This document shows, piece after piece, positions 1-11,019 of a DNA stretch of 11,019 bases. This DNA comes from Clostridia bacterium (GTDB lineage: Bacteria; UBA6262; WVXT01; JAUXBS01). The number at the start of each line of letters is the position of its first letter. Position 1 is the stretch's first letter. The notes under the pieces were generated by a model. That model saw nothing but the letters and a program-made list of their open reading frames with translations, was not told the DNA's origin and searched no databases. The translations under genes were made by a program, and so were the position numbers. The stretch covers positions 1 through 11,019 of the forward strand of contig JAUXDE010000055.1 of assembly GCA_030618495.1 (NCBI GenBank). The letters run 5' to 3'.

Positions 1-29
1 TCTTCCTAAGACCGCTTGGCCTCCGACTT
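1..29 (-). other. Sequencing-adapter contamination at contig end
   Basis: Read on the minus strand, these bases give AAGTCGGAGGCCAAGC followed directly by GGTCTTAGGAAGA. From memory, this is identical to the BGI/MGI (DNBSEQ) forward adapter sequence. In the rimO reading frame they encode residues unlike the conserved radical-SAM segment with its GFPGE-type motif that should precede the downstream residues. Good RimO homology begins exactly at base 30. The stretch is therefore best treated as untrimmed adapter carried into the assembly. Confidence 0.93.
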
Positions 30-419
30 AGGCAGTTCAGGGAACTTCTTGATTTTGTCAGGGAAACAAGGTTTGACAGGGTTGGAGTTTTTGAATACTC
101 AAGGGAGAAGGGGACCAGGGCATACAACTACCCCGCTCAGGTCTCCGAAAGGGTGAAGAAAAGCAGGCTCAGGGCATTAATGCTTGCCCAGCAGAAAGTA
201 TCCGAAGGAATAAACAGGTCGTTTGTAGGCAAACAGATGAAAGTGCTCGTTGACGGGGTGAGCAGTGATAAGCGGGTCTTGCTTTGCCGGACCTACCGGG
301 ATGCGCCGGAGGTGGATGGTTACGTCCTCGTGAAATCCGGAAAGGGAAGAGCCGGTGATTTTTTGAAGATAAAGATTACGGGAGCAAATGCCTACGACCT
401 TACGGGCAAAATAATCTAA
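30..419 (+). CDS. rimO: Ribosomal protein S12 methylthiotransferase RimO, 3' end (partial)
   Basis: This is the C-terminal ~129 residues of RimO, a radical-SAM enzyme that adds a methylthio group to a conserved aspartate of ribosomal protein S12 using two Fe-S clusters. Visible signatures are LLDFV followed by RFDRVGVFEYS, the YNYPAQV segment, and a C-terminal TRAM-type domain over roughly the last 65 residues. The TRAM domain contains DAPEVDG, the APE(V/I)DG hallmark that separates RimO from MiaB, and ends in a GDFLKIKITGA-type strand. The cluster-binding and SAM-binding N-terminal half is missing because the contig starts here. Bases 1-29 keep the frame open but are adapter, so residues read from them should be discarded. 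An internal GTG at 153 is not a real start, since homology continues upstream of it. The stop codon overlaps the ribosome binding site of the next gene, so the two are probably co-transcribed. Confidence 0.93.
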   Translation, partial: RQFRELLDFVRETRFDRVGVFEYSREKGTRAYNYPAQVSERVKKSRLRALMLAQQKVSEGINRSFVGKQMKVLVDGVSSDKRVLLCRTYRDAPEVDGYVLVKSGKGRAGDFLKIKITGANAYDLTGKII

Positions 420-10409: not shown

Positions 10410-11019
10410 ATGTCAAAACTGGTAAATCAATTTTCATGGTCGAATTCCCGTAACCTTTGTTTCTGGGAATGCAAGCGCAGGTACTTTTACAGTTATTACG
10501 GCCACTGGGGCGGCTGGGAAATAAATGCGCCGGAGGATGTCAGGGAGATATATGTTCTGAACAAGCTGAAGAACAGGTATATGTGGGCGGGAACCATCGT
10601 TCATGATTCGGTAAGCGAGGTACTCGGGAAGATGAAGTTGAACCTGCCGCATAAGCTTGAGGAAATTCTTCATTCCACAAGGGAAAGGATGCGTTCGGAT
10701 TTTAAATTATCAAGGGGCAGGGAATACTGGAGTAATCCCAGGACCTGCGCTTTATTTGAGCATGAGTATGAGATTGACATTCAGGATGAGCAGTGGAGGG
10801 GGATGTGGGACCAGGTGGAAAGGTGCATCGGGAATTTTTACAAATCGGACATTTTCAATGAGATAAAAAAAATAAGCGCTTCTTCCTGGCTTCCAATCGA
10901 AGAGTTCCAGAGTTTTGAGCTTGACGGTAATAAAATAAATGTTAAGCTTGATTTTTCCTATAAGGAAACAGATGGTTCTATTACCATAGTTGACTGGAAG
11001 ACAGGCAAGTCCGGGCTCG
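10410..11019 (+). CDS. PD-(D/E)XK nuclease-superfamily protein, RecB/Cas4-like (partial, 3' end outside window)
   Basis: An open frame of 203 codons runs from ATG 10410 to the window end. It begins FSWSNSRNLCFWECKRRYFY, the N-terminal signature of RecB/Cas4-type PD-(D/E)XK nucleases, in which C21 occupies the position of the first Fe-S cluster cysteine in related enzymes. Further active-site elements are H65 in GTIVHDSV, D181 in VKLDFSY, and D195-W-K197 in IVDWKTGK, together giving the H...D...DxK metal-dependent nuclease core. Whether the C-terminal cysteine trio needed for a cluster exists cannot be seen. Such proteins may act in DNA repair or recombination; no helicase, cas1/cas2 or CRISPR repeat is in view to support a specific role. 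The start sits 18 bases after the barrel gene, with a modest ACGGGA-type ribosome binding site at 10397-10402, so it may share that operon. Confidence 0.88.
   Translation, partial: MSKLVNQFSWSNSRNLCFWECKRRYFYSYYGHWGGWEINAPEDVREIYVLNKLKNRYMWAGTIVHDSVSEVLGKMKLNLPHKLEEILHSTRERMRSDFKLSRGREYWSNPRTCALFEHEYEIDIQDEQWRGMWDQVERCIGNFYKSDIFNEIKKISASSWLPIEEFQSFELDGNKINVKLDFSYKETDGSITIVDWKTGKSGL

Follow-up and report, generated by a model that had tools for sequence, protein, structure and literature searches.

An untrimmed DNBSEQ adapter at the end of a Clostridia bacterium contig that stops inside rimO

Features of the contig

The window analyzed here, a stretch of 11,019 bases, is the whole of contig C3 (C3:1-11019) in a genome assembly of 1,694,974 bases and 179 contigs that is 98% complete. 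At its left end lies an open frame (bases 3 to 419) that encodes the C-terminal part of RimO and in which a TRAM domain (TRAM_2) was matched; the match to the RimO model starts at residue 11 of the frame, which is base 33. The fragment is truncated by the contig end and scores 127 bits, below the curated TIGR01125 cutoff of 356.95 bits, and model positions 1 to 304 are absent from C3. The letters at bases 1 to 29 are TCTTCCTAAGACCGCTTGGCCTCCGACTT, the exact reverse complement of AAGTCGGAGGCCAAGCGGTCTTAGGAAGA. The coordinates of these features are given in Table 1, together with those adapter copies from other contigs and records that are discussed below.

Farther into the window, an inverted repeat (ATTATGGGGACACGTACCTAATTATTTT and its complement) occupies bases 1364 to 1438, between a GH130 gene and dnaE. 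The 19-base core of the repeat, GGGGACACGTACCTAATTA, has 47 copies in the genome (≤2 mismatches), mostly arranged as inverted pairs, and none in the control. The only Y1-type transposase found in the genome (PF01797, C61:1466-1789) sits between two copies of the core, and because it is flanked in this way, the repeat and the transposase together suggest a REP/RAYT-like system.

Table 1. Features at the left end of the window, adapter tails at contig ends of the same assembly, and phage records that carry the adapter
Feature	Record	Position	Strand	Evidence or extent
DNBSEQ (BGI/MGI) adapter left untrimmed, bases 1-29 of 32, outward	Window (C3)	1..29	-	29/29 identity; five more contig ends with adapter 1 or 2
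True 3′ portion of rimO (radical-SAM end and TRAM domain), cut off where C3 ends	Window (C3)	30..419	+	Profile match to TIGR01125 positions 305-432 of 432 (bases 33-407); TRAM_2; homology to C61 and G001
Nine spurious adapter-derived codons (FLRPLGLRL) in the rimO open frame	Window (C3)	3..29	+	Translation beside C61 and G001
Adapter 1 tail	C3	Left end, reverse complement		29/29 bases
Adapter 1 tail	C59	Contig end		All 32 bases, one mismatch (31/32)
Adapter 1 tail	C102	Contig end		20/20 bases
Adapter 1 tail	C157	Contig end		26/26 bases
Adapter 2 tail	C23	Contig end		35/35 bases
Adapter 2 tail	C149	Contig end		28/28 bases
Adapter in phage record	OR188718.1 (LPPA56)			
Adapter in phage record	OR188719.1 (LPPA36)			
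Adapter in phage record	OR188720.1 (LPPA33)			

Identity of the terminal bases and the state of rimO

The BGISEQ-500 adapters are printed as AAGTCGGAGGCCAAGCGGTCTTAGGAAGACAA (adapter 1, "left") and AAGTCGGATCGTAGCCATGTCGTTCTGTGAGCCAAGGAGTTG (adapter 2, its partner) (PMC10788357). Window bases 1 to 29 agree at every position with the beginning of this published BGISEQ/DNBSEQ adapter 1, which ends in CAA; those three bases are absent at the C3 end. When both strands of the window were scanned, the next-best ungapped match to adapter 1 was 16/29, and inspection of the contig ends found no adapter tail at the right end of C3. The tail occupies the very end of the contig and reads outward, with the 5′ side of the adapter (AAGTCGGA) adjoining base 30, and it appears as the reverse complement because it sits at a left end. 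The boundary between bases 29 and 30 is exact, since DNA homology starts at base 30 against C61, a 40,404-base contig of the assembly, and at base 31 against G001, a genome of the same genus. The genuine sequence of C3 therefore begins at base 30. An earlier note on this DNA, which had proposed a reverse-complemented DNBSEQ adapter at bases 1 to 29, is borne out in both identity and extent.

The adapter does not interrupt the open reading frame, which would suit the view that the 29 bases are genuine rimO of the organism and that their match to an adapter is a coincidence. Against this, exact 29-mer matches expected by chance in the window number about 8e-14, C61 and G001 have different DNA and a conserved GFPGET motif at the site, and five unrelated contig ends bear the same or the partner adapter. 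The recurrence at unrelated ends and the rimO genes of the relatives refute this view, to which we assign practically no probability. At the protein level, C61 and G001 read GFPGETDRQFRELLDF and GFPGETEGQFRELLEF across the junction, and the window reads FLRPLGLRL followed by RQFRELLDF; the first nine of these residues are translated adapter and take the site that holds the expected conserved GFPGET residues in the relatives. In G001, the rimO frame is intact (469 amino acids). Since the relatives carry GFPGET where C3 carries translated adapter, rimO is cut by the contig end and is not broken in the cell; it is uninterrupted in the organism, and C3 simply stops inside the gene. The break in rimO that had been described is therefore real in the contig, with the refinement that the contig end is what cuts the gene short and that C61 carries a version of the part lost from C3. 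A gene caller applied to C3 would yield a 5′-partial RimO with nine false residues, in agreement with the earlier concern about mis-annotation on the N-terminal side.

C61 carries TIGR01125 positions 1 to 356 of RimO at its own contig end, and this part alone scores 392.8 bits (cutoff, 356.95 bits). Its bases 1 to 163 overlap window bases 30 to 192, with 148 of the 163 bases identical (91%). An exact join of C3 and C61 after adapter trimming was considered and rejected, as the 163-bp overlap is only 91% identical. Judged by this alignment, C61 and C3 are probably sister strains or variants, and because the overlap is inexact, trimming alone would not merge them. Such sister variation may explain why the assembly halted at this site in rimO. 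At the other end of the contig, window bases 10467 to 11011 match C175, from the same bin, at 76% identity. The sub-identical matches at the two ends of C3 (91% and 76%) suggest sister strains; the one at the right end may instead be to a paralogue.

Adapter tails in the assembly and in public genomes

Contig ends were surveyed by a pattern search that covered remnants of at least 12 bases. Six ends among the 179 contigs, that of C3 included, have DNBSEQ tails, four of adapter 1 and two of adapter 2, its partner in the kit (Table 1). All six tails run to the final contig base with the AAGTCGGA side toward the genomic sequence, forward at one right end and reverse-complemented at five left ends, and no further genomic sequence was found beyond the adapter in any of them. 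A degenerate 12-mer covering both adapters has 10 sites, of which the six true adapter 12-mers are terminal and the four near-variants are interior; the number of true 12-mers expected to be terminal and outward by chance is about 0.001 for the whole assembly. Reversed patterns, used as a control in the same assembly, gave zero matches for the longer patterns.

Recurrence at several ends of one assembly would also be seen with a genomic repeat or the end of a mobile element, because repeats break assemblies and tend to gather at contig ends. However, the pattern search found no interior adapter copies in the same genome at ≤3 mismatches, the tails always point outward, and the sequence is identical to a published adapter and occurs alongside its partner. 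A search of the window for tRNAs and Rfam structured RNAs gave no match, which also counts against a repeat, as does the presence of the sequence in unrelated phyla with barcodes attached (see below). The lack of interior copies and the attached barcodes refute the repeat or mobile-element reading, which we consider extremely improbable.

From the position and orientation of the tails and the presence of the partner adapter, we infer that the adapter entered C3 by read-through. The insert of a library fragment would have been shorter than a read, so that sequencing ran on past it into the adapter; trimming would have failed on this adapter or targeted others; and the assembler, faced with a supported path from rimO into the adapter and a true path that ended or branched, would have followed the former. 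The terminal, outward placement of all six tails is the prediction of read-through. The adapter might instead be real and have arrived by chimeric ligation of library molecules, given that adapter dimers and chimeras do arise in libraries and that the two routes are indistinguishable by sequence alone; with six of six tails terminal, in the orientation of read-through, and followed by no genomic sequence, we regard this route as very unlikely. With a probability of about 0.99, bases 1 to 29 of the window are an untrimmed DNBSEQ adapter and an assembly artefact, not bacterial DNA; no observation speaks against this reading, and the terminal, outward copies of adapter 1 or 2 on five further contigs uphold the earlier note on this point.

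The adapter was also found outside this assembly. A contig of G001 terminates in the adapter, followed by 10 barcode-like bases and then CAAC. An 18-base part of the adapter is present in only 3 of 386 genomes sampled around the source, namely, the source itself, a neighbor of the same genus, and one more genome, in which the copies likewise lie near contig ends. The GTDB r220 genomes were scanned with an exact 26-base adapter pattern, which matched at least 118 stretches in about 38 genomes, counted by accession prefix; the matched genomes span unrelated phyla, with barcodes attached. Among the matches listed, 31 of the approximately 38 genomes are CSMAG metagenome-assembled genomes (MAGs), whose naming is that of a cold-seep catalogue (PMC10491686). 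Excluding JAQRGB, 102 of 104 matches listed face outward at a distance of ≤60 bases from the end of their contig. In the longest GTDB tails, the adapter is followed by a 10-base barcode and then by CAACTCCTTGGCTCACAGAACG, which is adapter 2 in reverse complement. Such a succession of adapter, barcode, and partner is what the structure of a DNBSEQ library molecule predicts. The pattern search did not find the adapter in plasmids, complete Escherichia coli genomes, or viral contigs.

Three Pseudomonas phage records (Table 1) carry the full 32-base adapter about 200 bases or less from the record end. JAQRGB, a public MAG of "Candidatus Thiodubiliella sp." TVD4-1sym, has the adapter, often with a barcode, inside long contigs; there are at least 22 matches (L067, L074, L087, L092, L141, and others), and in one case a run of N separates a copy from the partner adapter facing it. 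These interior adapters were probably left by gap filling or scaffolding. Inside a scaffold of Shewanella chilikensis JC5 (L127; NZ_NIJM01000066.1), the adapter with its barcode stands against its own reverse complement, with a short N-containing stretch between them; here a scaffold has been built across two contig ends that each carried an adapter tail. The earlier note had warned of false joins, which holds in principle, given the adapters inside scaffolds of two other public genomes; none was seen in the window. On balance, we favor the view that public MAG collections, and one cold-seep catalogue in particular, are systematically contaminated with DNBSEQ tails, for which too little screening is done, and that the copies found within scaffolds in a few records may be traces of joins mediated by the adapter.

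Comparison with known adapter contamination

For C3, data hygiene consists of trimming the 29 bases and counting the first nine residues of the rimO fragment as spurious. Matches or joins based on AAGTCGGA tails are untrustworthy. Because DNBSEQ tails occur in many public genomes, contig ends merit screening for the two DNBSEQ adapters in addition to the usual Illumina ones.

Moeller et al. (2024, PMC11536531) described adapter contamination concentrated at contig ends in public microbial genomes, and the MAG databases in which they found it include marine ones. The assembly studied here resembles those cases in that the forward adapter is found at contig ends and the reverse complement at contig beginnings. 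It differs from them in the adapters concerned, as that report names Illumina adapters and its text is without BGI or MGI, whereas the C3 case involves the two DNBSEQ adapters, and these would go unseen in a search with the Illumina 12-mer. The tail of C3 is the same phenomenon with DNBSEQ adapters, an ordinary artefact that holds nothing biologically new.
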